A DNA stretch of 64,000 bases, taken from NCBI RefSeq assembly GCF_009765875.1, contig NZ_LMUP01000007.1, forward strand, positions 186,001 to 250,000. Reading direction: 5' to 3'. The position numbers were made by a program, and so were the translations under genes. The DNA is from Pedobacter sp. L105 (lineage in GTDB: Bacteria; Bacteroidota; Bacteroidia; Sphingobacteriales; Sphingobacteriaceae). Positions 16,891-59,620 of this stretch are shown here, in pieces (the first letter of the stretch is position 1; each line of letters begins with the position of its first letter). The notes beneath the pieces are model-generated. The model was not told the DNA's origin, did not search any database, and worked only from the letters and a program-made list of their open reading frames with translations.

Positions 16891-16943
16891 TTTTAAATTT
16901 ATCTGTAAAGCTAACCAATGCCTTACAGATAAATTAATAAAAA

Positions 16944-39395: not shown

Positions 39396-39417
39396 GAGGT
39401 ACAAATAAGGTACAAAA
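39396..39417. repeat. Left direct repeat of the island (attL candidate)
   Basis: The 22-base sequence, made of two tandem ggtacaaa units, matches 21 of 22 bases with the copy at 59599-59620 in the same orientation. The two copies bracket the integrase-bearing region, so this is the likely left junction. Confidence 0.65.
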
Positions 39418-39467: not shown

Positions 39468-40115
39468 TTATTTAACTTTGAAGTCTTTAAGGTGAATATA
39501 TAATAAAGGTAATCCCTTTTTGATCCATGTTTTCTTTAGTGCTTTGAGAGACAAATATTCAACGATATTATTATCCAAACTACAAAGCAATGTTGGCACT
39601 AACATTCCGTCATAGAGTTCTATCCTTTGAAAACTTTGGTACTGACTATTGATATGCATCAAATTATCATTAAATACACCTTTGATTGTATCTGGTCTAA
39701 CAAGATGCCCACCTTCAAGAACTCTTTGTTCGACCCGACCAATACAATCCCCTACCTTATCCAGACAGAGATAATTAAGCTGTACCTGATATCCAGCTGA
39801 CTCAAACATATCTATGTATTTCCAGTAATCTGGATGTGACAATGGTGTCTCTAATACGAAATGTTCCTTGTTCGATATTGCCTTTTTCATTTCCAAAAAA
39901 AGCTTTTCCTCCATCATGCGAGTAGCGCGGGGTACTATTTCTATTTCCAGAACTCCTGCCGCCTTTAGCTCTAGTTCGAAAGATACACGAGTCTGATCCC
40001 TGTCAAAAGAAAATATTCCTTCAAATGGATCAGGTAGCATGGTCTGAATATGAGTTGATTTTCCAGCACCATTAGGGCCGGATATAACTAAAAGAGTTGG
40101 CTTAGAGTAATCCAT
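39468..40115 (-). CDS. Zeta-toxin-like P-loop kinase
   Basis: A 215-residue protein with a Walker A motif GPNGAGKST (14-22), followed by FEGIFSFDRDQTRVSFE and EKLFLEMKKAISNKEHFVLE, as in zeta-toxin-family kinases that phosphorylate UDP-N-acetylglucosamine. LVRPDTIKGVFNDNLMHI and the C-terminal LYDGMLVPTLL match standalone zeta-like ATPases of Bacteroidota. The upstream gene overlaps it by 14 bp, an arrangement seen in toxin-antitoxin pairs. It could also be a nucleic-acid or sugar kinase. Confidence 0.75.
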   Translation of the reverse strand: MDYSKPTLLVISGPNGAGKSTHIQTMLPDPFEGIFSFDRDQTRVSFELELKAAGVLEIEIVPRATRMMEEKLFLEMKKAISNKEHFVLETPLSHPDYWKYIDMFESAGYQVQLNYLCLDKVGDCIGRVEQRVLEGGHLVRPDTIKGVFNDNLMHINSQYQSFQRIELYDGMLVPTLLCSLDNNIVEYLSLKALKKTWIKKGLPLLYIHLKDFKVK

Positions 40116-40365
40116 AAGTTTTACGGATGCTATCTGCCTGCATTCCTTTAAGAACTTTAATCACACGGGTACTGAATTTTTTTCCGGCAGACACTACTTC
40201 CTGGATTTCGATACGACCATCAGCAAATTCTTTGTAGACCTGCCCTTCTGGGAGACTTTCTGAAAGAATAAGGAATGGTAGGTCTTTACTGAAATTATTT
40301 GCCCTCAGATTTCTGATGGTAATCAAATATTTTTCATGCTTATTTTCAAGCTCTAAATCTGACAT
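40102..40365 (-). CDS. Small partner of the zeta-like kinase, possible antitoxin
   Basis: An 87-residue protein starting at MSDLELENKH; an in-frame ATG 24 codons upstream looks non-coding. It is mixed alpha/beta and charged (FADGRIEIQEVVSAGKKFST) with no recognised domain. It overlaps the following kinase gene by 14 bp, so the two are co-translated. A role as antitoxin is inferred from position only. Confidence 0.55.
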   Translation of the reverse strand: MSDLELENKHEKYLITIRNLRANNFSKDLPFLILSESLPEGQVYKEFADGRIEIQEVVSAGKKFSTRVIKVLKGMQADSIRKTYGLL

Positions 40366-41086
40366 ATTATTAAGCAGCTGATACAATGTAAAAATACAAA
40401 ACTTACGACGAAAATTGAAATATAAAGCTTTCGTCATATCAGACTGTTAAGATCCTTCAATAAAATTGCAAACAATACTTAGTAAACCGATATCACTCCC
40501 TGAATTATTTTCCAGAAATTAGTGGGCAATTTTACCGAAATCTACAATCAATATAGATTATAAAAACTTTTGAACACTCATTATCAATTACTTATAACAC
40601 CTATTTTCCAATACAGAACTTTAAATTCATTGATTATCAGATAGTTACATCGACACGAGTACAATATGAGTACATTTATTTTACTTCCAATTGACAACAT
40701 TAAATAAACAAATTTAAGCTTCAAATAACAACAACAATTCCTTGTAAATCAACACCTTATTAATCATACCTCAATATAGTCAAAACACAAGGATGTGATT
40801 TCATTCCTCATAATATCGAATTCAAAAGCTGATAAACCTACTAATTTAGCGCTATCGAACAAAAGATTATGAGTCTTTTAACCTAACCGCCTTATTATGA
40901 AGCAAAATGTGCTTTTTTGACTTACAGAAGCAATTTATGAACTATTTTTGAAACCACAAAATTTTGCTCCGTTACGTATTTGTTATGGTTTCTGGAGAGT
41001 GTAACTTTAATTAGTGGATAATAAAAAGGCTAGTCAACCGAAGACTTATTTTCTAAAGCCAAAACCTGCGCTTATAGTTATGTCGC
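40366..41086. other. AT-rich non-coding gap with att-like scars
   Basis: About 700 bases without a gene. At 40657-40677 lies a degenerate version of the island end repeat (gagtacaatatgagtacattt). From 40848 on lies a tRNA-like/att-like scar listed separately. Nothing else is recognisable. Confidence 0.5.
40848..41000 (-). repeat. Degenerate tRNA-half plus core-site scar, left copy
   Basis: Read on the minus strand, 40862-40878 forms an anticodon-arm-like hairpin (AAAGA CTCATAA TCTTT, CAT in the loop) next to a damaged TTCGA sequence. Upstream stands a core-like GTAAC/GTTAC-type sequence (ataacaaatacgtaac). The stretch aligns, with gaps, over ~140 bases with 50887-51020: both share atcga-caaaagatt, tcacagaag-like and acgtatttgt blocks in the same order and orientation. 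Confidence 0.45.
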
Positions 41087-41572
41087 TTAAAAATCGAAAC
41101 CGAACAAGGTACCTTGGGGCCCTTGGTCATCTAGTCGCAAAACTACTTCGTCAACCGGGAAAAAGATAAGTTGATCTGCTTTATCCATCGACAAATCAGA
41201 TTTGATCACAGAAAGGATATATTGCAAATCGTACTTCTGACATAAGTCATGGATCAACGCTAGCAAACGATGCTTTACTCCTGGATCCTGTTGGGAAAGC
41301 ACATCATCATGGTATACAAAATGGTAATCCGATTGGTCGCTATAACTGGTCAGTACAGCGGCGAGATCGAAAGCAACACACAATAACTTTTTATAGGTAT
41401 TTCCTATATCCTTAGCAGTAGTCCGCTGATCGCCGCCCTTTTCATGAACCTTTGGTTGAGGAAAATCGACATTGTCATTGCTGTTGATGCTCCAGAACAT
41501 CCGAGCATCTTCATCCATTATTTTTTTATAATAGCTGTTGAACTTGGCACGGATATCCGCATACCTCTGCCT
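41087..41572 (-). pseudogene. 3' stump of a DUF2326 (ABC-3C-type) ATPase gene
   Basis: The frame is open from 41572 to the stop at 41087 and encodes the C-terminal ~160 residues of a DUF2326 protein: FNSYYKKIMDEDARMFWSIN, TTAKDIGNTYKKLLCVAFDL, FVYHDDVLSQQD, and the normal family end TLFGFDF. DUF2326 proteins are SMC-like ATPases usually over 500 residues long, seen in three-component ABC defence loci. Only the C-terminal part is left; a stop codon at 41573 precedes it and the YobI-type gene starts 105 bp further on the other strand. An ATG at 41518 could only make a fragment. Confidence 0.75.
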
Positions 41573-41676: not shown

Positions 41677-44600
41677 ATGAATCATCCATCCAACGAGCAT
41701 GCTATCCCAAAGCCGAAAATCCATCCTGCAAGACCTAGCAACATTCGTAGAAGATTAAAAATTTTTCGGGCCGGGATTAATCGTGAATACCGTTCTGCAC
41801 AGGCAACAATAACCGCAGTTCCGCAAAAACTACGTAACTCGACAAGCAAAAGGTTTATCAAAGCCATCATCTTTTTGGACAGCAAGATCACGGGCTTTGC
41901 TTTTAATCCTAATACAAGCAGCTATCGTGATCTTGCCCCTATTGAAGACGCCGATCAAAACAAACTTTATACAAACATGCTGCTTTGGGGGATCAAAAAT
42001 CCAAATGTCAGCAACATAGCTATTACTGGGCCTTATGGCTCTGGAAAAAGCAGCATCATCAGAACTTTTCAGAAACGCCATCTAGAATTCCGAAGTGTCA
42101 ACCTATCATTAGCATCATTTGATGAAGAGAAAGATGATAAAGGCGAATGGAGGAATAAAGTTGAGCTCAGCGTATTACAACAACTTATCTATCATGAACG
42201 CAGCCATGATCTACCGGATTCTCGATTCGTTAAGATCAGGCCCATTCGTTGGTATAGTCGACTATTCGGCACCTTGCTCCTTTCCATTTTTGCACTGTCA
42301 TACTTCTATGTAACACAAGGGGATTATTTCAAGCGCTTCAAATTTATCACCGAAGAAGTGAAACCTTTTTTAGACCTTGGCTTTTTAACCCTGTTGGTGT
42401 TGGGTAGTATTTATCTTCTTTACCGCCTTTATCGCAACATTCGAAATTTGCGTTTCACTAAACTCTCGGTTGTAACGGCAGGCGCGGAATTTTCGGAAGG
42501 CGAAACCCGCTCAATATTTAACAAGCACCTCGATGAGATCATTTACTTTTTCGAAGAAACCAATACCTCTTTGATAATTATAGAAGATCTTGACCGCTTC
42601 AATGATACTGAGATATTTACCAAGTTGCGTGAAATTAACATTCTGATTAACAATTCACGCCAGATAAACCATAAGGTTAATTTTATTTACGCTGTTCGGG
42701 ACAATATATTTACCCAAAACAACCGGACTAAGTTTTTTGACCTACTTATCCCCGTTATACCGATAATCAGTGTGGCCAATGCCGGAGATGCCCTTGCGGT
42801 CAGATTGGATACGATTATTCCAAACCGGAAGATGCCGCGTGAACTTCTTAGGACAGTTACTTTGTATATCCAGGATATGCGGATGTTGCTAAACATTGTC
42901 AACGAATTTAGCCTGTATTATGCCACTCTGTCCAAAGATTTAGATCCTGAAAAATTACTTTCCCTTATCATTTTTAAAAATCTTCATCCTGGAGATTTTG
43001 CAAAACTACATCATGGTAAGGGTATGATTATCCGTGTACTAGACAAAAAGAAATTATATGTTGGTGCTCAGAAAGAATCTATAGATCAGCAAATAAATTC
43101 GCTTCAATCCCATATCCGGGAGCTGGAAGCCCTTAAAATCAAAGACATTGAAGAACTCCGATCACTTTATGTTTACAAAGCGATAGCCGCACTACCTGCC
43201 CAGGCAAATCTGACTTTCAACGGAGAAACACGCCCCAGCGAATTCATCAAAGAGACTGCTTTTGACTGGTGGCGCAACGGTGGTGCGCTAATAGCAAACG
43301 GATTTAATCGTAATTACGGTTCTTATCAACCCATTAGTTTTAGCTACCCTTTTTCAACGGCTGAAAAAGAAGTAGATCAAAACCAGACTTATCTCCAAAG
43401 ATTGGAGAACATTGAAACCTATACCAAAGATGGTATCAGCAAAGCAAAGCTAAAGATAGAAACCCTCGGTCACGAACGTGCTTTGCTTTCAAGACAGAGC
43501 CTTAAAGAAATCTTAGATAACGGCGGACAGTTCGATTTTCCAACAGAAAAGCCCACCTCGTCTATCTTGATTTACCTCATGAGCAATGGCTATATCGATG
43601 AATATTATCATCCATATATATCCTATTTTATAGAAGGTAGCTTAAAACAGGAAGACATGAACTTTGTGATGAGCATTTTAAATCGGCAACCGCTAGCTTA
43701 TAATTACTCACTAGCAAATATAGATGTTATAGTTCGTGACTGGATAAGCATCGGCCAATATTCAAACACTGCCGTTCTGAACTTTAACCTACTAAGCTGG
43801 TTGCTAGAACAACCTGACCGCAATCAGGAGATATCCCTCTTAATAAATATGCTTAAAACAAATCAGGACGTTTCTTTTATTGATGCGTTCCTAGGTGAGC
43901 AAAAGAATCAGGATACGTTTATTCCTGCACTGGTAGCGAATTGGCCAGAAATTTGGGATTATCTTTTTGAAGAATCTTTTTATGATGACTCAACAATGGC
44001 TGTTTATGCTGCGCTTTTTATTCGCCACCTCTCCACCGATATTTTAGAAAAATCCATCAACGCAACCTCTAAATTTAGTGGATTTTTATCTTACAATACG
44101 GACGTCTATAACACTAATTTACTGACAGATAAACAGGAAGCTTTAGCTCGAGTCCTCAGTGATTTGAAAGTTTCATTCTTAAAAGTTGATGTCCTAGAAA
44201 TGCTTCCCAAAACTCTCGAAGCTGTTTATGAACAACACCTTTATCAACTAACGGGAGATAACCTCAGATACATCATGGTTAAATTTGGTGGTCAGGATCC
44301 TTTTCCAGAAACAGAATGGGACAACGCCAATTTTAGTACTATACTTGCTTCAGATGCAAGATTTTTAAAAACCAACTTGGAAAAAGAAATGCCCGTTTAT
44401 CTGGAGCTGATAAGCAAAAATGAGAAAAATACGAAAGAGAATGCAGAAACCCTCGTCAAGCTACTAAACACTACTGGACTTGATCAAGAGAAAACAAAAG
44501 CGTTTGTGAAAAAGCAAACCACTATCCTACCAGATTTAGAGGCGGTACCGGAAGAATACAGAGAATTTCTTATATCAGGGCGCCAGGTTACGCCATCCTG

Positions 44601-45462
44601 GAAAAACGTGTCTACTTATTTTCTACAACAGCAATCATTAGACGAAACACTTACCAGCTACCTAAATGATCCTAAGGTTTACTCCAACTTGGTTCTTGAG
44701 TCTTATCCAGCACGCACGCAAACTACAGAAACCGAGACCCTTGATTTGTCACAAGAAGTACTCTACAGGATAGAACTTTCAATCGAAAGTTACAAAGCAT
44801 TGTTAGATCACCTTTCTCCAAGTATGGAAGGACTGGATGTGGAGCAACTGGACGAAGAAAAAGTACGCTACTTAATTGATAGTGATCGAATAATCTTTGA
44901 TAACGAAATGTTCAGCGACCTGCAAACACATTATCCCGGCGTGATGCAGCAATATTTAGTAAAATACTTTGACAATTTTCTGGAGGCTTTTAACGAACTT
45001 TCTATAGCGGATAAAACACTACTGGATGTCCTTGCGTCCTTTGTACTCTCTGATGCTCAGAAGGCTAACTTAATTGAACACATTCTTACTCACCAACAGC
45101 CAGGTCAAAATGCTCTTGGCACAGCCGTCATCTCTTTTTTATTACAATATCCATCATGGCCAGAGACCGTCCAGCAAAGCAATGTCATTCCGTTGCTAAA
45201 ACTACCTTTTTCAACTTCAGAACGCATAAAAATATTAACGCCCATTATTTCAGAGATCGGAATGGAAACCTACAAGGAAATTGAAACCACGTTGGATGAG
45301 CCCTTTAACCATCTTTCAATTAATGACACATCCCAGCGGAGCTTTCCTAAATTTGCAGGCACTCATACCTTTATAGAATTAATCAAAGTACGGCTACCCG
45401 GAATACTGGGTACCATTAAAGAAAACAATGACAACATAACCGTTTATTATAAAGGTGTTTGA
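41677..45462 (+). CDS. YobI-family P-loop NTPase, membrane-anchored
   Basis: A 1261-residue protein. The Walker A is GPYGSGKSS (118-126) and Walker B LIIIEDLDRF (299-308). Between them lie two TM helices (about 196-212 and 232-250), the KAP/YobI arrangement in which the NTPase is split by a membrane hairpin. NHKVNFIYAVRDNIF (sensor region) follows. The remaining ~850 residues are helical repeats. YobI-like NTPases are found in phage-defence and mobile loci and are thought to act as membrane-linked sensors; the role here is inferred from that. It is divergent from the DUF2326 stump. Confidence 0.8.
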   Translation: MNHPSNEHAIPKPKIHPARPSNIRRRLKIFRAGINREYRSAQATITAVPQKLRNSTSKRFIKAIIFLDSKITGFAFNPNTSSYRDLAPIEDADQNKLYTNMLLWGIKNPNVSNIAITGPYGSGKSSIIRTFQKRHLEFRSVNLSLASFDEEKDDKGEWRNKVELSVLQQLIYHERSHDLPDSRFVKIRPIRWYSRLFGTLLLSIFALSYFYVTQGDYFKRFKFITEEVKPFLDLGFLTLLVLGSIYLLYRLYRNIRNLRFTKLSVVTAGAEFSEGETRSIFNKHLDEIIYFFEETNTSLIIIEDLDRFNDTEIFTKLREINILINNSRQINHKVNFIYAVRDNIFTQNNRTKFFDLLIPVIPIISVANAGDALAVRLDTIIPNRKMPRELLRTVTLYIQDMRMLLNIVNEFSLYYATLSKDLDPEKLLSLIIFKNLHPGDFAKLHHGKGMIIRVLDKKKLYVGAQKESIDQQINSLQSHIRELEALKIKDIEELRSLYVYKAIAALPAQANLTFNGETRPSEFIKETAFDWWRNGGALIANGFNRNYGSYQPISFSYPFSTAEKEVDQNQTYLQRLENIETYTKDGISKAKLKIETLGHERALLSRQSLKEILDNGGQFDFPTEKPTSSILIYLMSNGYIDEYYHPYISYFIEGSLKQEDMNFVMSILNRQPLAYNYSLANIDVIVRDWISIGQYSNTAVLNFNLLSWLLEQPDRNQEISLLINMLKTNQDVSFIDAFLGEQKNQDTFIPALVANWPEIWDYLFEESFYDDSTMAVYAALFIRHLSTDILEKSINATSKFSGFLSYNTDVYNTNLLTDKQEALARVLSDLKVSFLKVDVLEMLPKTLEAVYEQHLYQLTGDNLRYIMVKFGGQDPFPETEWDNANFSTILASDARFLKTNLEKEMPVYLELISKNEKNTKENAETLVKLLNTTGLDQEKTKAFVKKQTTILPDLEAVPEEYREFLISGRQVTPSWKNVSTYFLQQQSLDETLTSYLNDPKVYSNLVLESYPARTQTTETETLDLSQEVLYRIELSIESYKALLDHLSPSMEGLDVEQLDEEKVRYLIDSDRIIFDNEMFSDLQTHYPGVMQQYLVKYFDNFLEAFNELSIADKTLLDVLASFVLSDAQKANLIEHILTHQQPGQNALGTAVISFLLQYPSWPETVQQSNVIPLLKLPFSTSERIKILTPIISEIGMETYKEIETTLDEPFNHLSINDTSQRSFPKFAGTHTFIELIKVRLPGILGTIKENNDNITVYYKGV

Positions 45463-45882
45463 GGTAATAATATCTCCCATTTAGTATCCAGAAAGACTAT
45501 ATTTGGCATTTGAGCTCATTGACAGTTCAATCACTAATCAGAAACATATTGACGTTTTGCACAATAGGAATGTGTGATTATGTTGATTTATTAAATTAAA
45601 TAAATCAAATCCTTTGCTAAAGAATTCCTCAACCGTAATACTGAAGCACGATCACTTTCAGCAAACAGGAATAGCAAAGATCTTTCCCCCTTTCATACCT
45701 TTACCTTCCAAAATAAGAACGCAAGTTTTTCACCTTTATTAGCACCATAAGCATAATTGGTAAATCCGCTTTGATTGTAAGCGCTTTGATATGGTTATAC
45801 ACCAAGCATGGTAATAACCAAAGTATAATTACAAAAACACCATTTAAGTAAAAATGAATACCTTAGTTAAAACGAACAAGCG
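45463..45882. other. Gap with remnant of an XRE-type gene
   Basis: These 420 bases have no intact gene. On the minus strand 45604-45645 encodes FSITVEEFFSKGFD, the type of C-terminus found in small XRE-family regulators. A near-copy occurs at 50817-50861 (FGITVEEFFSEGFD plus stop). The rest is AT-rich with no signal; the promoter of the following operon must lie here. Confidence 0.5.
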
Positions 45883-46928: not shown

Positions 46929-49900
46929 TTGAATTTCTCTTTCAAAAGTATTTGTAAACTTTTCAGTTTCAAAAGGAATGCTATTTCTTTTAAAGACATC
47001 AACAATTCGAAGCTGAAGATCGATATATATAATGATCCTGTGGTCAAAGCACGTGCAAACTTTGACATTTCCGAAGCTTGGCTAGATAAGATCTTAAATC
47101 TGCATTATGATGATGAGATAAAAAGTAAATACATCCCGGAATTACATCAAATCAGCGAATTTGAAAGAGATAGTTTAAATGACCTGCTCGAATATAATGA
47201 ATGGAAGTCAATCCATTCGAACCAAATCCGTGTATGTGAGGATTATCTTAGCAGATTTGAGAAAAGTTATATTGAATTTTATGAAGCGCTAAGTAACGAG
47301 AATATAAAAATTACCCAACCAGCTTCAAATTACGTCACAGCACCGATTGAGTTGTTTAATCAACTAGAGAGCATCAGGACTTTGTTGTCAGATTTAAATG
47401 ATGTTTTTGCAAAAACAGATCTCAATCTGGTTGAGGATTTAACAGGCTTTTCGCCTTTACCAACGACAAATGAAAAAATAAGCTCACGAATTTCATCTAT
47501 ATGGAACAGATTTCTCGATAAAAAGCCCAAAGATGAGTACGTAGTACGATACCTGTTTCAACATTATCAACAAGTATATTATTACCTTGCAGACATGCAG
47601 GCTATGCTCAAAAATATCATCGAGCAAGGAAATTGCAAGATCATAGCAGGGAATGCCGGAACTGGAAAGACTCATATTTCTGCTCATATTATTAAAGAAT
47701 TGAAAGCAAAAGACCAATACGTACTTTTCTTCAAGCCAAAATTATTTAATGGTGACAACCTCAATTTTGAAGAAAAAATGCTGGAGCTTTTAGAAGCTCC
47801 TAGAGACTACACTTTTACAGAAATTTTAGAGTCTCTGGATGCGTTCAGCTTTAACGCAAAAAAGAGATGTGTGTTGATATTTGATGCTTTAAATGAAACG
47901 ACGAAATCTAATATTGGTTTTAGTAATATATGGAAAACAAGCCTTCAGAGCTTCATCAATAAAATAAAGCATTACCCTAATCTTTATGTAATCTGCACTT
48001 TGAGAACTTCCTACATCGATAACATTTGGGAGACAAAGCCTTCAAGGATTTTTGAACTTAAAGGATTAGGAACAGATAGCGATGTCAAAGCAGCTTGTCA
48101 AAATTATTTCAGCTATTACAATATAAAACCAAAGAATTTCGACCAAGCAGATCTGTCTTATTTCAATATCCCTTTATTACTGGACCTTTACTGCAAACTA
48201 ACTAACGAAAATAGGACAAATGAGGTTTCAGTAAGCCTTGACATCAATTCTTACCTAAGTATTTTTGAAGACTATATTTCAAGGCTGACCTATGAAGTAA
48301 AAAGAAAGCTAACACTTCAAAAAGACACACTTATAAAAAGTGGCTTTGAAAAAAGCTCCGAAGCATTTTTAGAAAACAATGAAGCCATTATATCTTTAAA
48401 TGCCTTTAGTGATGCTTTTAATGACAGAGATCATACCACAATAGATCATTCTATCGCCCAGGCTGTTTTAGAAGGGTATCTTATTTTCATCAAGGACTTT
48501 ACTGGAGGTGCGAATGAGATAATCAAACATACACAACAGGAAGTAGGCGGCTATCTAATAGCTGCAGAATTAATGCGACAATATCCAATATTACAAGACC
48601 TTATCAATTCTGCAGTGTTTCAGGAAAAGCTGGTTGGAAGTGATCCTGCAAATCATCATCAACTACGTCTAGATATACTTAAGTTCCTGATAGCAATGCA
48701 ACCGGATTTAATTAAAGCCTTAACGGACAATGACGGAATTAATTTGTCCTGGTGGTATCTGTTTAATGGATCTCAACAAAATATAGATGAAAGTATTCCT
48801 AATTATCTATTGAACTTGGATGATAAGTTAATTGTTAAAGACATACTGGATATTAGCAGCAGACAGTGGGTAAATCCGAATCATCAATTTAATTTTGATT
48901 TTATTTCAAAGGTTTTACTAAAGCAAAACTTGTGGGACTTTAGTTTGGAATGGGACTATTTAATTTACAAAGATGCCGACTACTTTTGGACGTTTGTAAA
49001 AGAAAATCAAGGTTTTTTAAAAGACTTTACAACACATGATTTAAGATACCATCTTACTGCGGCTAAATTTATAAGCTATATAAGTTCAACAACCATAACC
49101 GAACTTCGGAATGAGGCTACAATCTACCTCATTGAATTCGGTAAAATCTTACCTCTCTCACTTCTAAAATTAACAGTAGAAGCATCAAAGTTAAAAGACA
49201 CTTACATTTATGAACGCCTTGCAGGATGTTGTTACGGCGTAGCATTAAACCTTCAGAATGACCCTTACTTTGTATCTCAGCAATTACCTCATATAGCTGA
49301 AGAATTGTTTAATCTACAATTTGCAGAAAACGCTGCTGCTCCCGTATATAATTATATTGTTGTAGATTCAATTAAACATTTACTGGATCTAGCGATTCTT
49401 AAAGAACGTATAACTTTCAGCGAAGTTGATCTAGAACGAATAGCAAATTATGAGTTTACAGCCCCAGTAACATGGACAGCTCCGGATGAAGAGCAAGTTG
49501 AGGCTGTAATGAAAAGCCGTGAAACAGATTGGCCGGCTCCAATAGGCATGGATTTTGGAATTTATACTATTCCAAGGTTATTAAAAGAAGAAGATATCTC
49601 ACAGCGTGAAGCAATTAGTCATGTATTCAAAAGAATCTACGAATTGGGTTACAAAAATCTCGACCTAAATAAAGACGATGACGAAACGTTTAATGGCTTT
49701 TATTGGGGACAAAATCTTTTTAGAAGAGATTGGTCTATAGAACGGTTAGGTAAGAAGTATTCCTGGATGGCATTTTATGACTATGCCGGGTATCTATTAC
49801 TAAACAAACACCTAAATGTGTACGAAAGAGGCTCGGAAACAACCTATTACAATCGTCTAAGTGACGTCAGTATCGATTTTTCACTACCGTTAACCGATTA

Positions 49901-50759
49901 TAAAATTGATAAAAGACTTTTTAACGGAAATTTGCTGCAAGATCAAACTAAAGATCCAAATTGGGCTAAAGCGGTTAACCTAGATTCGTTAAATGAATTT
50001 TTCCAGCAGTCAATCAATGGAAATAATTCAACAATGCTATATGGAAAAGTTGACCAAGGTGTAGACGATCGTTTCAAAGTGAGGTCATTTATATTAGTGG
50101 AGTCATTCTTTATAAAAAATGATGAGGATCTGCCAGCACTTCTTGAGGCAACAGATATTATCTATGACGAATGGAAACACGATATTCACATTTCAAGGGA
50201 TGCCATAAGACATACTTACTTTGGTGAATTATATTGGGCGGACACCATGCCATCCACTTCCCCAGATACCATTACCATCCCAATAGGAAAGATGGTGAAA
50301 TACTTAAGAACGATTACAGCTATGATGGCAATCCAAGAGGGATATGGCCATGAGCGAATTGGTGAAAAAATTGAAGAAGAAGGAATGGGCAGGATACAAT
50401 TCGACTCAGAACCTTCATTATCAGAATACTTATGGGAATCTGACAGTGCTATATTAAAGGGTTTTAGTGAATACCTACCTTCAGTAAAAATGGGAAAATA
50501 TCTGGAACTGAAATCAGACCCAAAGACTTGTCAAATACTCGACGATCAGCTTAATCCAGCTTTTTACTGTGTTCATTTTAAAGACGATTCGCATTTCAGT
50601 AATGATTTTAACTATATGAGAAATGATTTGCTAAAAAAATACATGATGGATCATGATCTTTCACTTGTCTATCAGATCAAACAACATTCTTATGATGACA
50701 ATTCCCAGAACCGGATGATGAAGTTCTTTGTAATAAACCATGCAGATATTACTGTATAG
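46929..50759 (+). CDS. NACHT/STAND-like ATPase, 1276 aa, TTG start
   Basis: A P-loop ATPase with Walker A GNAGTGKT (241-248), Walker B VLIFDALNET (314-323) and a sensor-like ICTLRTSY (355-362), in the order of NACHT/STAND ATPases. Residues 1-220 are a helical N-terminal region without a recognised effector domain. The ~900 C-terminal residues are helical and repeat-like and may be the sensing part. TTG at 46929 is taken as start because no ATG occurs nearby and it lies 4 bp after the previous stop; the N-terminus contains KDINNSKLKIDIYND, similar to the tail of the 90-aa protein. The gene is visibly AT-rich compared with the nuclease-STAND gene. It does not match an Avs subtype I can name. 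Confidence 0.72.
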   Translation: MNFSFKSICKLFSFKRNAISFKDINNSKLKIDIYNDPVVKARANFDISEAWLDKILNLHYDDEIKSKYIPELHQISEFERDSLNDLLEYNEWKSIHSNQIRVCEDYLSRFEKSYIEFYEALSNENIKITQPASNYVTAPIELFNQLESIRTLLSDLNDVFAKTDLNLVEDLTGFSPLPTTNEKISSRISSIWNRFLDKKPKDEYVVRYLFQHYQQVYYYLADMQAMLKNIIEQGNCKIIAGNAGTGKTHISAHIIKELKAKDQYVLFFKPKLFNGDNLNFEEKMLELLEAPRDYTFTEILESLDAFSFNAKKRCVLIFDALNETTKSNIGFSNIWKTSLQSFINKIKHYPNLYVICTLRTSYIDNIWETKPSRIFELKGLGTDSDVKAACQNYFSYYNIKPKNFDQADLSYFNIPLLLDLYCKLTNENRTNEVSVSLDINSYLSIFEDYISRLTYEVKRKLTLQKDTLIKSGFEKSSEAFLENNEAIISLNAFSDAFNDRDHTTIDHSIAQAVLEGYLIFIKDFTGGANEIIKHTQQEVGGYLIAAELMRQYPILQDLINSAVFQEKLVGSDPANHHQLRLDILKFLIAMQPDLIKALTDNDGINLSWWYLFNGSQQNIDESIPNYLLNLDDKLIVKDILDISSRQWVNPNHQFNFDFISKVLLKQNLWDFSLEWDYLIYKDADYFWTFVKENQGFLKDFTTHDLRYHLTAAKFISYISSTTITELRNEATIYLIEFGKILPLSLLKLTVEASKLKDTYIYERLAGCCYGVALNLQNDPYFVSQQLPHIAEELFNLQFAENAAAPVYNYIVVDSIKHLLDLAILKERITFSEVDLERIANYEFTAPVTWTAPDEEQVEAVMKSRETDWPAPIGMDFGIYTIPRLLKEEDISQREAISHVFKRIYELGYKNLDLNKDDDETFNGFYWGQNLFRRDWSIERLGKKYSWMAFYDYAGYLLLNKHLNVYERGSETTYYNRLSDVSIDFSLPLTDYKIDKRLFNGNLLQDQTKDPNWAKAVNLDSLNEFFQQSINGNNSTMLYGKVDQGVDDRFKVRSFILVESFFIKNDEDLPALLEATDIIYDEWKHDIHISRDAIRHTYFGELYWADTMPSTSPDTITIPIGKMVKYLRTITAMMAIQEGYGHERIGEKIEEEGMGRIQFDSEPSLSEYLWESDSAILKGFSEYLPSVKMGKYLELKSDPKTCQILDDQLNPAFYCVHFKDDSHFSNDFNYMRNDLLKKYMMDHDLSLVYQIKQHSYDDNSQNRMMKFFVINHADITV

Positions 50760-50816: not shown

Positions 50817-50861
50817 TTAATCAAATCCTTCGCTAAAAAATTCTTCAACGGTAATCCCGAA
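50817..50861 (-). pseudogene. Remnant of an XRE-type gene, right copy
   Basis: On the minus strand this encodes FGITVEEFFSEGFD and a stop, as in the C-terminus of XRE-family regulators. The bases agree at most positions with 45604-45645. The upstream part of the gene is absent and is replaced by tRNA-like sequence. Confidence 0.45.
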
Positions 50862-51098: not shown

Positions 51099-54000
51099 TT
51101 ATATAAATATCATTTCATAAAGACTATGGGTTTTGGCAATCGTGCGGTAACTGCTGCCCTTTTCCCGGACATTTAGCCGGCACACATATCCAAGTTTTAA
51201 CTGATTTTCGTCCAGCTTATTTTGCAAGTAAGCTCTATCGATCTTCAGATAATTTCCGGAAGGGATAATATCTCCTTGTTCAATAGTCTCCCGCATACCA
51301 AGTGCGAAATCGTTCACAGTACAAATAACTGTTTTTCCATCGGTATAGGTAATTTGGTCACCATCTGTACTCAGATTTAGGCTGCCTTGTAGGATAGGAT
51401 TAAGCAAGGCTGGCTGGTGGACCATTCGATAATATTGCCATATCATCCCCGTATCAAGGATTATAGTACCCACCAAGTCCGTAACCTCCAGATCCAGTAG
51501 CTGATGGGCTGTCAATCCCTGACCGGAATGCATCAACTCATGGTCAAAAAAACCCAGATCCTGCGGACTTTCCGCTTTTGAGATCCAGCAGCTCCGGGCA
51601 CGAGACAACGCTTCAAAAATGATTTCGGCTTCTGGCATCCGATTTCCTTTCAAACGATAAGCAAAAGGCAATAGAATTAATTCGCCCTGGCGCTTGCTCA
51701 CAAAATAATTAATGCCGGTACGGACAGCACCCTTTAAGCTGAGCAGTTGGTCTTTATCATTGGCCGCAATAAGGCTCCTGATCGGAACTTCCAATAAATT
51801 CCGTAGATCGCCAGCTTGTCCCTTTTTAAAAGTCGGCCACCAATCAGGTACTTTACCTGGTTTGATCCGCCAAAACGAAATATCAGCGGGGAGGTTCTTC
51901 TTTGTATTACTATCGAATTCGTAATAACTGATCAGCTTCGCATCATACAGGTAGTCCAGTAGATTGAAAAAGGAAGATTTAAAGATTTCGCTGATGACGT
52001 TTGAACGGCCAATCATCAATTCACCGGCGGTATTGGCGTAACGTGGGTCATCCCAGGTTTCTTCGATACCCAATGCCTCGATTTTTTCTATAAATAGATA
52101 GTACCATAGTCGCCAGACTGGTACCCGAGCTTTTCGCTGGAGCTCGATAATAGTTTCGTGGTAAAATTGCGTCAGGTAGGCATCCATATTACTGAAAAAT
52201 TTTTCTTCCATCATTTCGTCACGCCGGGAACTCAATACAATAACCCTTGGTATGGGCGCAAAGAATTTAGTCCTCGTTTTCTTTGCGATGGCCTGCAAAA
52301 ACAGGTCAGTAGCCATGCAACGGAGGCCTATCGGGTAGGTTTTATCAAAGTTAATATACATATAACTGGCGCTTCCCGGGCGATCCAACGATTTCAGCAC
52401 AATGGTCAAGCCGTAACATGCATAAGTTTCCAGTTTAACTTCTAAGAGCCATTTTATAAACCGAGTATGCAAAACTCCTGCTGTATCATCGGCGAGCATT
52501 TCGGCCAACAAATAAGCTGCCCGTTCACGGGTGAGCGGACTTAGCCATTCGACCCTTTTGAGCAGAACATCGATCGGCAGAATCTGCTCCTCATTTAAGG
52601 CAAAAGCCGGTTGGTTGAGTTTCACACCTGGGAAAAGGTTTGGTAGCAGGGCAATATTAGCACTAGTTAATTCCTCGGCCCGGTCAGTCATACCTACATA
52701 GCTAAAAAAATGGGTGACGCGAGGCACGGGTAGGTAATATGTTCCACCTTTGCCCCGATTTCTACCGGAATATATGATCGTTTTGTCGAGAAAATCTAAT
52801 ACCCTTGCAGGAAAATCGCGTATCAACAGCTTCCATTTCTGCTTTGCCGATTCCAAGTGAGTGCTCAGGTCACTCCAATCGCTATTATTAGCATAAGACC
52901 AGCACAAACAGTCGAAAGCAAACTTAGGGTCTGAAGCGAGTACATGCGGATAAAGCAAGTCCAGCACCTCCGCTGGTATGTGTGTAAAATCACGAACTGT
53001 CAGTGTTTTTAATGCGGTGATGACATCGAACGTTCCCTCCTCATTTTCGGGCAACCAAACCGTACACCATTCCTTAAGAAAGTTTTGCTGCACATAATTC
53101 TTACGACTATAGTTTTCATGACCCAAGTTATCGTAATAACCTATCAGTTCAGTAGAAGAGATACCAGTGATTTTGGAAATATCGACTTCATGGGTATGGG
53201 AACCATAATCCTGCTGTGGTTCCCGCTCATCGTCATAATTGACGGGGCCAAACATTGCGTCGATCTTCCCTAACGCCCTCTGTGCCTCCGGACTGGTTTT
53301 TGCCAGGAAGCTCAGGCTGTTATGTGCGCTGTGCGATACAGCAGTTTCTGCGATCGCTGCACCTATAGGTTCACCCAAGTCCAGACAGGCAAGGCAATCA
53401 CCAAATAAAGATTCCGACAGGCCATAATTTCTTTTTTCCAACGCATCAAAATACAGGTTGAACAATAGGTTAGGATCGTAAATGCTCAGCAGACCGGCCC
53501 AGGTATAAATGAAAGCTCCTGTCTCATCACCGTCGGTATAGGCTTCCATATCATAGACATAAGGTGCGATCTGACGCAAATAATCCTTCGTCTTTTTAGA
53601 ACCGGCAGTTCCGCACACCTGGATGTTTTCGATAACATATGCTAGGGTCATGTCCTTATGGTTGCCGTAGCTGATAAGGATATCGGCGGCTTTTGTCAGA
53701 AGTGCATCTGCTTCAGCTTGGCGACCTAAGCGTTCTGCCTGCCGGATCAGGGCTACATACCGTTCTGCACGTTGGTCGAATTGCACGATAGTACTTTCCA
53801 GCCCGGCGATGACGCGATTTTGGTAGGCATCATAGGCAACATCACTGAATCCAAAAGATGAAGAATCGAATAATTCGTGCCGGGTCGTATCGTTCAGCCA
53901 CTTGCAATCAAACAGAGCAATTACATCATCTTTGGAGAGTTCATTGAGAATATTCAACTGCGCATTCAGAATCGCACCGGTGCGAAACAGGGTCGCAAAA

Positions 54001-56969
54001 AGATGGGGAATTATAGTACGTTTAAGTTCGAATATCTCATGATTGGCGTAAAAATCCAAGTCGGGCAAAGATTGAAAACTGCTAATCAATTCGGCAATCC
54101 GAAATGCATGTTTGCTTTGATAATCATCAGCCATACGCAGTGAGTTTTTCAGAACAGTTTTCATTAGAAGCACCGGCCAATGGTCTACTGGCTGTGCGAT
54201 CCATTTCCGGACGGTTTCGGCTGAGCCGGAAAGACATAGGTAAAGCCCGGAAAAAAAATTACCTGTGTAAAGTTCATTTGCTTTACCTGACCGGGCAGAT
54301 TGGTAATCGAGTGCATCCGGGAAAGCCTTTGCTGCATCCAGTCGGATATGTTTAGGTGTCGTACGTTCTTTGAAAAAGTAATATAGCTCAGAAAATTGGT
54401 CAGGCTGGGCCTTGCGACACCAGATATCAATCTCCGGCACCCAGTCTCGCTTCCCGGTAAGCAGGTGGTGGACGAGCAGGCGCTGATATACGACATTCCT
54501 TTCTTCGGTCTGTAGCGTCTGTTTTAGTAGTTGGCCAATCAGTTCTTCTCGTTTCATCCGCAGAAGCAATTGGATAAAAAGGTTGAAATAGGCGACCGAG
54601 CGGTTAGTCCCCTTGAACTGGAGTAAAAAGGTATAGATCTTTTTAAACGGTTCGTTATTGAAATGCAGTAAAACCTCAAATATGCTTTCTATCACTTCAT
54701 CTTGTTCGTAATCATGGGTACGCAACAAATCGTCAAAGCGCAGAAGCGCTTCTGACGGTACAGCCTGGAGGATGCCTTCATCATAGAGGTTTAACAGATA
54801 GTTTTTGAGTGCGAAATGGCTCAATTGCCCATAATCAAGGAACCGTTTGCTTCCTTTCTTTTTGCGACTGTAAGCAAAATCTCCCAGCGCTGGTAGCACC
54901 TTAGATAAATTGTATTGTTTATTTTCAAAATAGACTTCCAGATAACGAAATTCGAGCACCTTGCTGTACAAACGCTTTTTGAAGGCTGCCTCAACCGCTA
55001 GTTCCAATATCCTTATGATTTGAATTTCATCCCTGCAATCCAGGTAAGCGTTTATGATCCAGGGTTTATCTACTTTCAGTAGTGGCTTATCATTGCCCAA
55101 TGCGTACTCGACCTTGAGCAATTCAGCCCAAGCCAGGTCTTTATTTTTCGGTTTTTTCAACCAGTTACGGAGCTGTTTGTAAAGTAGCATCTGCTGCTCT
55201 GCAAGTTCGGGTTGGTCACCAATAAAGACGGCAAAACTATTGTGATAAACGGAAATGCCAGGTAGTTCAATACGGATCAGGTGCCGGATTTGCTTGTAAG
55301 CCTCGCTGATTTCTTGCGGTTTACTGGCTAAATGCGCGGCCAGGTCGAAGAGTTGTTCTTCCTGAAGTTTAAAATCCAAGCGGGTTATGGCCAAAGCAAA
55401 GGTCTTGGACAGTGGGGCAAGCTGCTGCCAAAGGGCCGAATAATAATCGCTGATCTCGCCTGTATAGGGTAATACAGCAGCAATGCTGTCGGCGGAAACG
55501 ACATCATTTCCCAGTTCAAGTTGTTTCAGGACATACTTTAAGTGCAGTGGATTGCCTTGGGTCTTGGCGTATAAAGCCGGTATTAGTTGGTCCGCGATGT
55601 CCTCGTGCTGATGGACGCACGCACGTACGGGGTGTTTTTCAAAAATATGCCTGACGGCCTGACGACTTAATCCCTTGATCTCGATCCTTTTTTCTGGGAG
55701 GACAAGGCGGCTGATTACATTGGGTAAAAAAGGTAGCGCCATTTCCTGAGTACCCAACACAAGCCAAAAGCCCTTTTGTGGGTAAAGCACCTGTTCTATA
55801 AATTCGCCTAACTCCCGTTCATCAAAGCTTTCTCGGATTACGTGGTCTAGCCCGTCAATAATCAGCACGAACGTTTTACCCCTATCACTGTAATATTTAG
55901 CAACAGCAGCTATAAAATCTTTTAAGGGGGTGTGTTCCGTGTTATGTATGGCGAGTTGGCCAAGAACATCTTCCTTTTGCTTTTTAAATTCGGCTTTGAG
56001 GGCTTCCTTTACTCGGTCGGAATTGAGCCGGTCGCGGTAAGAAGTATCTTTCGGATTTAAATGGTAATGGTGTCGTATGACAAACAAACCAACCTTTTCC
56101 TGAAGCAGTTGATAGAGTTTAGACAGGTAGGTGCTTTTTCCGCTACCAGGCTTACCTGTAAAAAGCTTAATACCTCCACAAGTATCCCGCAGTTCTTGAA
56201 CGGTCAATGCATGTTTGTGTTTATCAAAAAACTCAAAGTCGGCTGGCACCTCAAAGTCTTGGTTGAGTGGCCGAGGATCATCCCACGACAACTGGTCACG
56301 AATACTAGATAAAGTAAAAACGAGCGGGTATTTCGCAGAACCCTGTTGTCCTATATGGAGCAGCAAGCGATCCGCACCGGCTTGAGTCACCTTAAGTTCA
56401 TAATATAAGATTTCTCTTAGTTCCCCCTCCAACTTATCCCTACCTGGCATGTCAAAGGTAAATACAAAATTATCGCAGAATTGCCGGAGCGCGTCTTCGC
56501 CATGAATTACGTTCAAGCTCTGAAGGAGTTTTGGTTGATGTCTGACCAGTTTTTCATAATTAATCCGATCCTCTTGGAGACAATCGGCGACCTCGGAGTC
56601 TGCCGTGCCGTTAGTTATTAACGCGCCTGTACCTGGTATACCTGCATTTATCAAACTAGCGTAAGAACTGATCCAGTTATTCCAACCCTTTTCCAACAAA
56701 CGATCAAAGGTCCATAGATCGGTCGATGGATTTTGCAGATGTTTAAGCTGGTGAAATTCCAGGAAACCGTTTTGATCTTTTGCAACAATATCATCAATAG
56801 CAAAACGGAATGCCTTTATTTCAGATGGTACATATTGAATTTTTAATTCACTGTATCGACGAGGATTTTTCAACCATTTAACACACAACTGTAGTACATA
56901 GAGGTCTTCGAAGTCATATCCACTTCTTATGGAACTGTTGGGATTTATTCTGGTTGTATCGGTTTTCAT
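51099..56969 (-). CDS. Predicted PD-(D/E)XK nuclease - STAND ATPase fusion, 1956 aa
   Basis: The N-terminal ~110 residues resemble DUF4297/Cap4-type nucleases: GYDFEDLYVLQLC, then D60 in FAIDDIV and E71-x2-Q74-x-K76 in FLEFHQLKH. A STAND ATPase follows with Walker A GKPGSGKST (272-280) and Walker B VLIIDGLDHV (368-377). Residues ~500-1956 are a very long helical-repeat region ending in a beta-rich tail. This nuclease-ATPase-repeat order is that of Avs-type antiphage sensors, in which the C-terminal part recognises a phage protein and the nuclease destroys DNA. The length is at the high end for such proteins. It is monocistronic, oriented towards the tRNA-like scar. Confidence 0.78.
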   Translation of the reverse strand: MKTDTTRINPNSSIRSGYDFEDLYVLQLCVKWLKNPRRYSELKIQYVPSEIKAFRFAIDDIVAKDQNGFLEFHQLKHLQNPSTDLWTFDRLLEKGWNNWISSYASLINAGIPGTGALITNGTADSEVADCLQEDRINYEKLVRHQPKLLQSLNVIHGEDALRQFCDNFVFTFDMPGRDKLEGELREILYYELKVTQAGADRLLLHIGQQGSAKYPLVFTLSSIRDQLSWDDPRPLNQDFEVPADFEFFDKHKHALTVQELRDTCGGIKLFTGKPGSGKSTYLSKLYQLLQEKVGLFVIRHHYHLNPKDTSYRDRLNSDRVKEALKAEFKKQKEDVLGQLAIHNTEHTPLKDFIAAVAKYYSDRGKTFVLIIDGLDHVIRESFDERELGEFIEQVLYPQKGFWLVLGTQEMALPFLPNVISRLVLPEKRIEIKGLSRQAVRHIFEKHPVRACVHQHEDIADQLIPALYAKTQGNPLHLKYVLKQLELGNDVVSADSIAAVLPYTGEISDYYSALWQQLAPLSKTFALAITRLDFKLQEEQLFDLAAHLASKPQEISEAYKQIRHLIRIELPGISVYHNSFAVFIGDQPELAEQQMLLYKQLRNWLKKPKNKDLAWAELLKVEYALGNDKPLLKVDKPWIINAYLDCRDEIQIIRILELAVEAAFKKRLYSKVLEFRYLEVYFENKQYNLSKVLPALGDFAYSRKKKGSKRFLDYGQLSHFALKNYLLNLYDEGILQAVPSEALLRFDDLLRTHDYEQDEVIESIFEVLLHFNNEPFKKIYTFLLQFKGTNRSVAYFNLFIQLLLRMKREELIGQLLKQTLQTEERNVVYQRLLVHHLLTGKRDWVPEIDIWCRKAQPDQFSELYYFFKERTTPKHIRLDAAKAFPDALDYQSARSGKANELYTGNFFSGLYLCLSGSAETVRKWIAQPVDHWPVLLMKTVLKNSLRMADDYQSKHAFRIAELISSFQSLPDLDFYANHEIFELKRTIIPHLFATLFRTGAILNAQLNILNELSKDDVIALFDCKWLNDTTRHELFDSSSFGFSDVAYDAYQNRVIAGLESTIVQFDQRAERYVALIRQAERLGRQAEADALLTKAADILISYGNHKDMTLAYVIENIQVCGTAGSKKTKDYLRQIAPYVYDMEAYTDGDETGAFIYTWAGLLSIYDPNLLFNLYFDALEKRNYGLSESLFGDCLACLDLGEPIGAAIAETAVSHSAHNSLSFLAKTSPEAQRALGKIDAMFGPVNYDDEREPQQDYGSHTHEVDISKITGISSTELIGYYDNLGHENYSRKNYVQQNFLKEWCTVWLPENEEGTFDVITALKTLTVRDFTHIPAEVLDLLYPHVLASDPKFAFDCLCWSYANNSDWSDLSTHLESAKQKWKLLIRDFPARVLDFLDKTIIYSGRNRGKGGTYYLPVPRVTHFFSYVGMTDRAEELTSANIALLPNLFPGVKLNQPAFALNEEQILPIDVLLKRVEWLSPLTRERAAYLLAEMLADDTAGVLHTRFIKWLLEVKLETYACYGLTIVLKSLDRPGSASYMYINFDKTYPIGLRCMATDLFLQAIAKKTRTKFFAPIPRVIVLSSRRDEMMEEKFFSNMDAYLTQFYHETIIELQRKARVPVWRLWYYLFIEKIEALGIEETWDDPRYANTAGELMIGRSNVISEIFKSSFFNLLDYLYDAKLISYYEFDSNTKKNLPADISFWRIKPGKVPDWWPTFKKGQAGDLRNLLEVPIRSLIAANDKDQLLSLKGAVRTGINYFVSKRQGELILLPFAYRLKGNRMPEAEIIFEALSRARSCWISKAESPQDLGFFDHELMHSGQGLTAHQLLDLEVTDLVGTIILDTGMIWQYYRMVHQPALLNPILQGSLNLSTDGDQITYTDGKTVICTVNDFALGMRETIEQGDIIPSGNYLKIDRAYLQNKLDENQLKLGYVCRLNVREKGSSYRTIAKTHSLYEMIFI

Positions 56970-57296: not shown

Positions 57297-58418
57297 CTAA
57301 AAGTACTCCAAATCAAGAACTATTCTCTCTGCCGCTTCAGTTTTTTTCTTGTCAACAATTTTAGCATACACTTGAGTGCTTTTTAGACTTTTATGTCCGA
57401 GCAATTTAGATAATGTAAAAATATCCGTTCCATACTCCAATTGTAAAGTTGCATAAGTATGCCTAAAACTGTGAAAAGTAATATTTTTATACACTCTCGC
57501 TCTATGTAACCAGGCAACAAAAAACGGTTTTAAGGACGAATATTTTAAGTTGTCAAAGACTATCTCATTCGGCTCTCCCCTTTTTCCAATAAGCTGTACA
57601 GCTTGATCAGAGATTGGTAATACTTCAGCATTTCCTGTTTTATCTTGAATATACTGCAAATAGTATTTACCAGGTACTCCTTTAATATTTGAATAAGTCA
57701 GTGCCTGCACATCAGAAAATCGTAGGCCAGTGAGTCCCGAAAAAAGAGCCGCTCTTTTCATCAAATCAGATGATGAAGGTGTAGACGCCAATCGCTGAAA
57801 TTCTTCGATTTCCAAACGATCCCGATGTGTTTCCTGGAGCTTAATAGGCAGAACAATTTTATACAAATCAACATCAATCAATCCTCTTTTAAATACCTCC
57901 TTAAGAACTGAACGAAATTTAGCAAAGTAATTAACTGCGGTGTTCTTACTTATCGCTTTCTCTCTGCTATTTAACCCAGGCCCACTTAACAAGAAGTTTT
58001 TGTAATCTTCACAGAGAAAGTCATTTAAATCACTCAACTTAATATCTTCCTCAGCGAAAGCTATAAAGTAACGAAGCGCCATCGCATGATTATCAGAGTC
58101 AGACCTTTGCTTCTTAATCGTAAACGCCCTGAAATGTTCTATAAAACTAGAATCTCTGATAGCATCAGACAAAAATCCAAATCTTCTATTTTGAATATCA
58201 ATCTGACGACTAGCACGTATAAATTCAACCAGATTTGATGTTTCCTTATTATGCAACCTTTCTGCGACATTAGATGGCTTATCAAAGGTAAATAGCTTTA
58301 GATACTCTGTTCGCTGCAACTTTCCCGTATAGGGGTTATAAATTGGCGGATAGTGATCCAGATAGATGGTATGCCTGGCTTTGGAAATGGCTTTACGTCG
58401 TATGGTAACCTTGGACAT
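57297..58418 (-). CDS. Tyrosine recombinase (phage-type integrase)
   Basis: A 373-residue site-specific recombinase with an N-terminal Arm-like region, a SAM-like core-binding domain (about 85-175) and the catalytic domain. Catalytic residues: R233 (GLTGLRFSD), H316 and R319 (HSFRHTYA), H342 (LLGHKS) and nucleophile Y351 (TQVYAK). It should integrate and excise the island using the direct repeats at 39396 and 59599. It follows the zinc-finger/helix-turn-helix gene with a 1-bp overlap. Confidence 0.93.
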   Translation of the reverse strand: MSKVTIRRKAISKARHTIYLDHYPPIYNPYTGKLQRTEYLKLFTFDKPSNVAERLHNKETSNLVEFIRASRQIDIQNRRFGFLSDAIRDSSFIEHFRAFTIKKQRSDSDNHAMALRYFIAFAEEDIKLSDLNDFLCEDYKNFLLSGPGLNSREKAISKNTAVNYFAKFRSVLKEVFKRGLIDVDLYKIVLPIKLQETHRDRLEIEEFQRLASTPSSSDLMKRAALFSGLTGLRFSDVQALTYSNIKGVPGKYYLQYIQDKTGNAEVLPISDQAVQLIGKRGEPNEIVFDNLKYSSLKPFFVAWLHRARVYKNITFHSFRHTYATLQLEYGTDIFTLSKLLGHKSLKSTQVYAKIVDKKKTEAAERIVLDLEYF

Positions 58419-58987
58419 TATTTTATATCGTTATTAAAAATTACATCAAGTTCTTTTTTTGCAACATAAGTATACCACCCATTTTTAAATTTTGATATCT
58501 TATGTCGTTTAATCAGCTGATACAAACCAGCCTCTGAAATTTTAAATTTCTTTTGTGCTTCTGCTATAGAATAGCTATCCCTTATCTTGGGCCTAACCAC
58601 GAGCTTCTCTTCAGGGAATTTAATCTGTTCTTTAATTTCAAACAATCGATCGATCTCCTTACGAGATATAACAGTTTTACGCACAGAGAGATTTACAGCA
58701 GCTAATTTCCCGTCTGCAATCATTCTATAGATCATTTTTGTTGATGTACTTAAAAGTTTAGCCGCGTTACTCACACTCAAAAAATATTTTCCCTGTAAAC
58801 TCTTAATCGGTTTATCTAGGATGGTTTGTACTTCCTGATCTGTGTCTTTCATTGCATTAACACGCAATCTTAGCTTATAACTTCTCTTATTGCATATTGC
58901 GCTACAAAACCGCATTACTGTTGTTTTAGCATCAAATATTCCTTTGCAATGCTCACAAATCCTCTTCACTGTAAAATTCGAACTCAT
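58418..58987 (-). CDS. Zinc-finger and excisionase-like helix-turn-helix protein
   Basis: A 189-residue protein. Residues 11-32 form a CxxC...CxxxC zinc-binding pattern (C11, C14, C28, C32). Two MerR/excisionase-type helix-turn-helix segments follow: [20 protein letters not shown] (about 68-87) and [20 protein letters not shown] (about 140-159). It overlaps the integrase gene by one base (TAATG), so they are co-expressed. It most likely acts as a recombination directionality factor or regulator for the integrase. Confidence 0.8.
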
Positions 58988-59220: not shown

Positions 59221-59457
59221 ATGGAAAAGGAAACCCTACTTAAAGATCTTGGTGCCAGGATACGTGAAATACGTAATAAGAAGGGTATTTCTCAAAAACA
59301 ACTTGCCTATTCCATTGGCAAAGACCAACAATCTGTGCAAAGATTAGAAGCTGGCAATATAAACCCAACCTATTATTATCTCTATGAAATAGCTGATGGT
59401 CTGGAAGTCGATCTTGAGGTTTTAATCAAAAGAGAAGGTGCTGACTCCACTGAATAG
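59221..59457 (+). CDS. XRE-family transcriptional regulator
   Basis: A 78-residue helix-turn-helix protein (GARIREIRNKKGISQKQLAY, then SIGKDQQSVQRLEAGNINPT). Length is that of a single-domain XRE regulator. It is divergent from the excisionase-like gene and near the right island end, so it likely controls integration genes. Its C-terminus differs from the XRE remnants at 45604 and 50817. Confidence 0.88.
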   Translation: MEKETLLKDLGARIREIRNKKGISQKQLAYSIGKDQQSVQRLEAGNINPTYYYLYEIADGLEVDLEVLIKREGADSTE

Positions 59458-59598: not shown

Positions 59599-59620
59599 GA
59601 GGTACAAATGAGGTACAAAA
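59599..59620. repeat. Right direct repeat of the island (attR candidate)
   Basis: The 22-base sequence gaggtacaaat, then g, then aggtacaaaa matches the left copy except for one base. It lies 139 bp past the mnmE stop, so integration was downstream of, not inside, mnmE. Confidence 0.65.

Follow-up and report, generated by a model that had tools for sequence, protein, structure and literature searches.

The dissection of Avs receptors is hampered by their build, in which a single chain of up to 2000 residues contains the effector, the switch, and the sensor. In Avs3, as described in PMC11291478, PMC10952240, and PMC12198126, binding of the ligand to the sensor leads to a tetramer in which the nuclease domains are paired and DNA is cleaved. 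Avs1 is defined in PMC12799240 by the N-terminal trypsin-like protease of Avs1b together with an upstream MBL-fold pro-nuclease, Avs1a, and the same account describes a system that senses the phage terminase and in which the Avs1b protease releases the gated Avs1a nuclease. Terminase and portal are given as the triggers of Avs1–4 in PMC12931631, where an unrelated jumbo-phage protein is described as the trigger of Avs5, illustrating that Avs receptors can use quite different triggers.

The window analyzed here is the whole 64,000-nucleotide stretch of Pedobacter sp. L105 DNA, and its minus strand carries at positions 51099–56969 a single, uninterrupted frame of 1956 amino acids for which full-length relatives exist. 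The arrangement from the N to the C terminus appears to be that of an Avs-type receptor without an existing name, with a nuclease followed by a STAND ATPase and a sensor. The original prediction of an Avs-like nuclease-STAND fusion is thus backed by profile, fold, and neighborhood evidence, and its description of the C terminus as unusually long does not hold, as proteins of this length are usual for Avs1b and Avs3 (1924 positions in the Avs1b model, 2090 in the Avs3a model, and 2028 residues in the solved Avs3 chain 8dgc_A).

The nuclease-STAND family is widespread. Of 400 genomes from the order to which the window belongs, 13 match, six of them (its own included) over the whole length and seven in part, the latter including Avs1b genes. 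The nuclease-STAND signal is far beyond chance because the five other genomes of the order carry full-length relatives at 36–50% identity and the catalytic residues are retained in relatives from other phyla that are about 20% identical. With the single window protein as query, a genome scan returned zero relatives, and the scan with an alignment returned 240 stretches with 132 relatives, of which 80 were kept. These relatives are distributed over Bacteroidota, Pseudomonadota, Chloroflexota, Bacillota, Campylobacterota, Kiritimatiellota, Gemmatimonadota, and other phyla. Relatives also occur on two archaeal MAG contigs; L069 is nearly identical to Chloroflexi copies and may therefore be misbinned. 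Forty-seven plasmid records match, some over the ATPase alone, and the phage records contain no match to the family. Five viral contigs match, one of which (L117) spans residues 56–1524, and in the other four the match starts within the ATPase or shortly ahead of it and ends by residue 810.

The N-terminal domain (about residues 1–250, positions 56220–56969, minus strand) is assigned by alignment and predicted model to the Cap4/DUF4297-type PD-(D/E)xK nuclease fold with a D...QxK motif. The motif set Asp-60, Glu-71, Gln-74, and Lys-76 had been proposed from the sequence, and all four residues are at these positions. Asp-60, Gln-74, and Lys-76 are invariant in all 58 aligned N termini (the window protein and 57 of 78 loci, with rows more than 80% alike removed and 7 of 85 loci excluded beforehand as distant or lacking the N terminus), and Asp-59 is present in 57. 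Glu-71 is the one member of the set that is not invariant, the position being acidic in 46 of the 58 (25 Glu and 21 Asp). Asp-59, Asp-60, Gln-74, and Lys-76 are invariant as well in a 12-sequence alignment of the window protein with 11 relatives 18–50% identical to it, in which the window row lacks the first methionine and its residue numbers are one lower. The predicted model of residues 1–260 has a mean pLDDT of 94.3, and its top Foldseek match in the PDB is 8dgc_A, which is Avs3 bound to the PhiV-1 terminase (E 1.2e-7, TM 0.61 by query length), followed by LmuA (1.7e-5), Cap4 (2.2e-5), and then a Hachiman chain. The comparison therefore returned a nuclease fold where a non-nuclease fold would have spoken against the original prediction. 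The N-terminal alignment profile searched against PDB sequences matches Cap4 (7yib, E 4e-4), and Pfam Cap4_nuclease matches 4 of 12 members with a best E of 8.7e-4; it is absent among the window protein's own Pfam matches.

These same matches raise the question of whether the protein is instead an effector of Lamassu (LmuA) or CBASS (Cap4), as PADLOC LmuA also matches it (E 2.6e-4) and the N termini of relatives match CBASS nuclease models. What the protein shares with these systems is, however, confined to the nuclease domain, and the other approximately 1700 residues form the STAND and C-terminal parts. Scans of the protein and its eight neighbors gave no weighty match to LmuB (SMC-type), CD-NTase, or SAVED, the only LmuB signal among the neighbors being a chance-level match (0.049) of a zeta-toxin-like gene, and the Lamassu or CBASS assignment, which is considered highly improbable, was rejected for lack of such a partner.

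The nuclease domain is followed by the STAND/NACHT ATPase core (about residues 265–600, positions 55170–56177, minus strand). The original prediction had placed a complete P-loop ATPase here, and Lys-278 is indeed at the position given; across the 12-sequence alignment, window protein included, most of the P-loop with Lys-278 and the DGLDH sequence of the Walker B region show no variation. Pfam AAA_22 is above its cut-off in the window protein, NACHT scores 24.2 bits against a cut-off of 26.7, and all 12 members examined match NACHT at E values of 1 or below, the best being 9.6e-11. The PADLOC Avs1b model matches the window protein over the ATPase only (residues 349–594, E 9.5e-21). On these motifs and profiles the region is assigned as a STAND ATPase core. 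Profile-profile alignment (hhalign) of 32 fused members extends over residues 254–1148 against Avs1b (3 rows, E 1.4e-23) and over residues 13–828 against Avs3a (7 rows, E 7e-12). The middle region (about residues 601–1455, positions 52605–55169, minus strand) is therefore reached by the Avs1b match as far as residue 1148, and it is considered helical by analogy only. More than 1400 residues of repeats had been proposed for the remainder of the chain. This was not confirmed, as no repeat family is present among the Pfam matches listed (for 12 members, the best 25 of 44 families) and the last 220 or so residues are β-rich in the predicted model.

The genes surrounding the receptor are consistent with a role in defense. 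Two large genes on the plus strand lie to one side: an Avs2-like STAND gene (46929–50759, 1276 amino acids; PADLOC Avs2 E 1.9e-58, NCBIfam Avs2 138 bits against a cut-off of 1000), the product of which has no match among PDB sequences at 0.01, and a Tmn (YobI-like ATPase) defense gene (41677–45462, 1261 amino acids; PADLOC Tmn E 6e-75, Pfam YobI-ATPase 1.8e-114). Tmn is not supported as a constant partner, and its pairing with the receptor is local, because the frames of loci L037–L121 contain no homologue of the window Tmn at 1e-10. Defense genes adjoin the homologues also. The 80 neighbors lying within 6 kb of 13 Bacteroidota relatives match 134 PADLOC models at 1e-15, Septu and Hachiman parts being among the models listed, compared with 34 for 80 control proteins (from 100 in 13 regions at round coordinates of five genomes and the window's own), both figures being counts of redundant models rather than proteins and some of the 13 loci being near-copies. 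The homologues thus lie in the defense context whose absence would have counted against the original prediction.

On the other side of the receptor gene are a tyrosine integrase (57297–58418, minus strand; Pfam Phage_integrase 1.4e-17), an excisionase-type HTH gene (58418–58987, minus strand; Pfam HTH_17 3e-17 and TIGR01764), and mnmE. A 22-nucleotide direct repeat is present at 39396–39417 and, beside the 3' end of mnmE, at 59599–59620, the copies being 95% identical and 20.2 kb apart, and the left copy is a possible island end. The receptor gene is probably carried on a mobile island. The ends of the island are putative, as no empty site was seen in three close relatives, where the left flank was not found beside mnmE, and the mnmE 3' end itself has no repeat of 13 or more bases elsewhere in the window. 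Of these three relatives, L177 contains two similar copies (at about 463 and 17833, each with four or fewer mismatches) that enclose a different stretch of 17 kb next to mnmE, and in L175 an integrase-like match lies at 16309–16917, also beside mnmE. The 3' side of mnmE may be an integration hotspot. Several smaller features were observed in the same area. A 43-nucleotide direct repeat (45603–45645 and 50819–50861, 86% identical, 5.2 kb apart) flanks the Avs2-like gene and the small genes preceding it. A zeta-toxin-like kinase gene (39468–40437, minus strand) lies close to the left repeat with an overlapping 111-amino acid gene upstream, the two possibly forming a toxin-antitoxin pair. The 143-amino acid frame at 41087–41518 (minus strand) matches only the last 101 of 581 positions of a PADLOC candidate family together with Pfam DUF2326 and is probably a gene remnant, and a 78-amino acid frame between the excisionase-type gene and mnmE (59221–59457, plus strand) has an XRE-like HTH by eye.

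An unexpected feature of the family is that the last 490 or so residues are a distinct module, which among relatives is repeatedly its own gene. In the window protein the module comprises residues 1456–1956 (positions 51102–52604, minus strand) and is the putative ligand-sensing tip. In the four plasmids examined the main gene stops around residue 1455, with a gene of about 460–480 amino acids directly downstream. Plasmid pMOL28 of Cupriavidus metallidurans CH34 (L020) is one carrier of a natural split pair. The chain is naturally cut, repeatedly and at one site, with the far end as a separate gene. The state of the module was assigned in 73 loci (85 less 12 fragments, broken or distant loci). 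Of these, 34 have the module fused, and in 28 it is an intact downstream gene overlapping the main stop; the other 11 fall outside this rule. The overlap in the 28 split loci is 1–43 bases, counted from the first possible start codon of the downstream frame, and points to translational coupling, which would keep body and tip at a fixed ratio. A module HMM matches 34 of 34 fused and 28 of 28 split loci, which is no test because most of those sequences built the HMM. None of the 11 unclassified loci contributed to it, and it detects the module in 10 of them: whole in one downstream frame in five (L059, L072, L081, L083, and L093, which count as split under a less strict criterion), truncated at the contig end in L063, and broken or partly lost in L088, L104, L108, and L096. 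The sole miss is L089, where the main gene ends 103 bases before the contig end. The module is thus found in 38 of the 39 loci that are not fused, four of which have it broken or partly lost. The C terminus of the window's clade (15 rows) aligned by hhalign with the 28 stand-alone genes gives a Prob of 100 and an E of 1.1e-40, compared with an E of 0.84 for a middle-region control, and by this profile comparison the two are homologous.

On the tree the fused or split state changes at least 8 times (5 changes being forced by starred branches) compared with 23 in shuffles, a rough count as the tree was made by a quick method and has several long branches (69 rows over the columns of residues 1–700, with 5 broken or short rows dropped and L063 scored as split). 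Every member of the window's clade of 15 is fused. The Herminiimonas copy L098 is fused, although its nearest relatives on the tree are split; provided that the assembly is correct, this represents a recent re-fusion. With the module alone as query, 3 of 398 and 6 of 400 genomes (9 of 798) proved to contain it, and in all nine it accompanies the body, eight times in one frame and once as the next gene. Several of the nine supplied rows of the model or underlie the earlier loci, and the informative part of this search is that no orphan module was found in the 798 genomes. One genome with a partial match (G045) was also searched for the module and has none. The stand-alone gene was considered as a candidate Avs1c and rejected, the PADLOC Avs1c model having only 86 positions. 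Three stand-alone genes have zero matches in PADLOC at E 1, and a fourth has zero matches in NCBIfam at 0.001. Nothing relevant on a split Avs or an Avs6 was found in searches of open-access papers.

The predicted model of the module has a mean pLDDT of 88.1 and is helical to about module residue 250 and β-rich beyond. Below E 0.001 its PDB matches are confined to the two Avs3 chains of 8dgc (1.4e-7 and 2.0e-7), with TM scores of 0.49 (query length) and 0.48 and an rmsd of 11–12, representing a partial fold match, and there is nothing below 0.001 among predicted viral structures. At the level of sequence profiles the module is colinear with the Avs3a C terminus, the match being too weak to confirm the fold similarity (Prob 8.5, E 0.004), and has no detectable relation to that of Avs1b (Prob 2.7). 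A terminase-like trigger is taken as the default because both ends of the protein, folded apart, match terminase-bound Avs3 best. The trigger may be the large terminase subunit or a similarly shaped protein, an assignment held with somewhat less than even confidence. A shared trigger and a shared C terminus need not coincide, as Avs1 also senses terminase and the Avs1b C terminus is unrelated to the module by profile. The part of the module that matches 8dgc may be the part contacting the ligand, and to regard the module as what touches the ligand is a guess from fold similarity.

Two other readings of the module have to be weighed against this. The first keeps the same receptor with a trigger that is neither terminase nor portal, the module having been remodeled for another phage protein. 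The module is less conserved (44% identity to the nearest relative, 24–31% within the clade, 11–21% outside it) than the nuclease domain (57% to the nearest relative and 47–49% for most of the clade), the Avs3a and Avs1b profiles do not reach it, and Avs5 provides a described case of recognition of an unrelated jumbo-phage protein (PMC12931631). Against this, the only PDB neighbors of the module below E 0.001 are Avs3 in complex with terminase, and the length of the receptor, from which a trigger other than terminase or portal had been argued in the original prediction, is no argument for a different trigger because Avs1b and Avs3a are equally long. A trigger of this other kind is given less than even confidence. 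In the second reading the module is a regulatory or assembly part, for example an inhibitor or a part holding the complex together, and the middle region reads the ligand. Its retention in 38 of 39 non-fused loci, even where split off in many lineages, agrees with this and is what any kind of essential partner would show, whereas the module fold matches a receptor solved with its ligand, and this second reading is considered unlikely.

The reading of the module as a sensing tip fits a mechanism in which the window protein is probably an Avs-type antiphage receptor, with a phage protein sensed by the C-terminal part, oligomerization through STAND, and cutting of DNA by the nuclease. The resting chain would be inactive until its long C-terminal part captures a phage protein, for which the large terminase subunit or one of similar shape is the likeliest candidate; within this part the last 490 or so residues would act as a distinct, separable sensing module. 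Ligand binding would cause the STAND ATPase to oligomerize (to a tetramer in Avs3), the oligomer would pair the N-terminal Cap4-like nuclease domains, and the paired nucleases would cut DNA, such that the infected cell is stopped. By analogy with Avs3 the predicted anatomy of the window protein fits this at each step; activation by oligomerization, DNA cleavage, and cell death are inferred for it from Avs3 and Avs1.

The family could tentatively be regarded as an Avs type without a name, positioned between Avs1 and Avs3, in which a constant nuclease-ATPase body carries an exchangeable sensing tip, either fused or as a translationally coupled subunit, and the tip alone sets which phage protein is recognized. 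If this is true, new specificities could emerge through the replacement of one small gene. The natural split supplies ready-made constructs for finding the part that reads the phage and for learning whether specificity is exchangeable. Beyond the nuclease or the ATPase domain, the family is covered by none of the PADLOC and NCBIfam models searched. The PADLOC matches of five further members are confined to the nuclease domain (CBASS, LmuA, and HamA effector models) or to the ATPase (Avs1b, in three of the five), bar one weak, chance-like match, and NCBIfam Avs1b gives 25–61 bits in four of the five and none in one, with a cut-off of 1500. Genome surveys built on these collections likely miss the family because its coverage is only domain by domain. 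Further Avs-like families without names are perhaps represented by STAND proteins of 1885–2023 amino acids in L030 (8118–13799), L031 (7528–13185), L152, and L153, the N termini of which are Cap4-like by eye; the L030 protein has no PADLOC match below 0.01.

Comparison with the known systems places the window protein, by sequence in the ATPase and middle regions, nearest to Avs1b (PDLC02159, NF041810), which is of nearly equal length. Differences occur at both ends of the chain and in the gene order. Avs1b has an N-terminal trypsin-like protease, whereas the window protein has no protease match and a Cap4-like nuclease in its place; the C-terminal part of Avs1b is unrelated by profile to the window module; and Avs1 has the MBL-fold pro-nuclease Avs1a upstream, whereas the window gene has the integrase upstream and no Avs1a among eight neighbors. 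A true Avs1a-Avs1b pair is present in the window's bacterial family (L028 from G016, Avs1a E 6e-108). With no N-terminal protease, no Avs1a, and a score of 53.3 bits against the NCBIfam Avs1b cut-off of 1500, membership of Avs1 was rejected. A phmmer search of the whole window protein against PDB sequences gave one chance-level match only. The neighboring Avs2-like protein, encoded on the same stretch, is likewise an Avs-type STAND receptor, of a separate family, and the window protein has no match to PADLOC Avs2 at E 1. Cap4 of CBASS, LmuA of Lamassu, and DUF4297 of DUF4297-HerA have the same nuclease fold and motif, overlapping with the window protein in the first 250 or so residues only and having different sensing parts. 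The Avs3a profile finds members in 9 of 395 genomes, with no split form seen (seven in one frame and two cut by contig ends), and has no match to the window protein at E 1 nor in its genome at 0.001. Common to Avs3 (PDLC02167, 8dgc) and the window protein are the N-terminal Cap4-like nuclease, the STAND core, a partly similar predicted fold of the C-terminal module, and a length of about 2000 residues, and in place of the Avs1 arrangement, in which a nuclease is freed by the protease, the window protein has its nuclease joined directly to the STAND switch.
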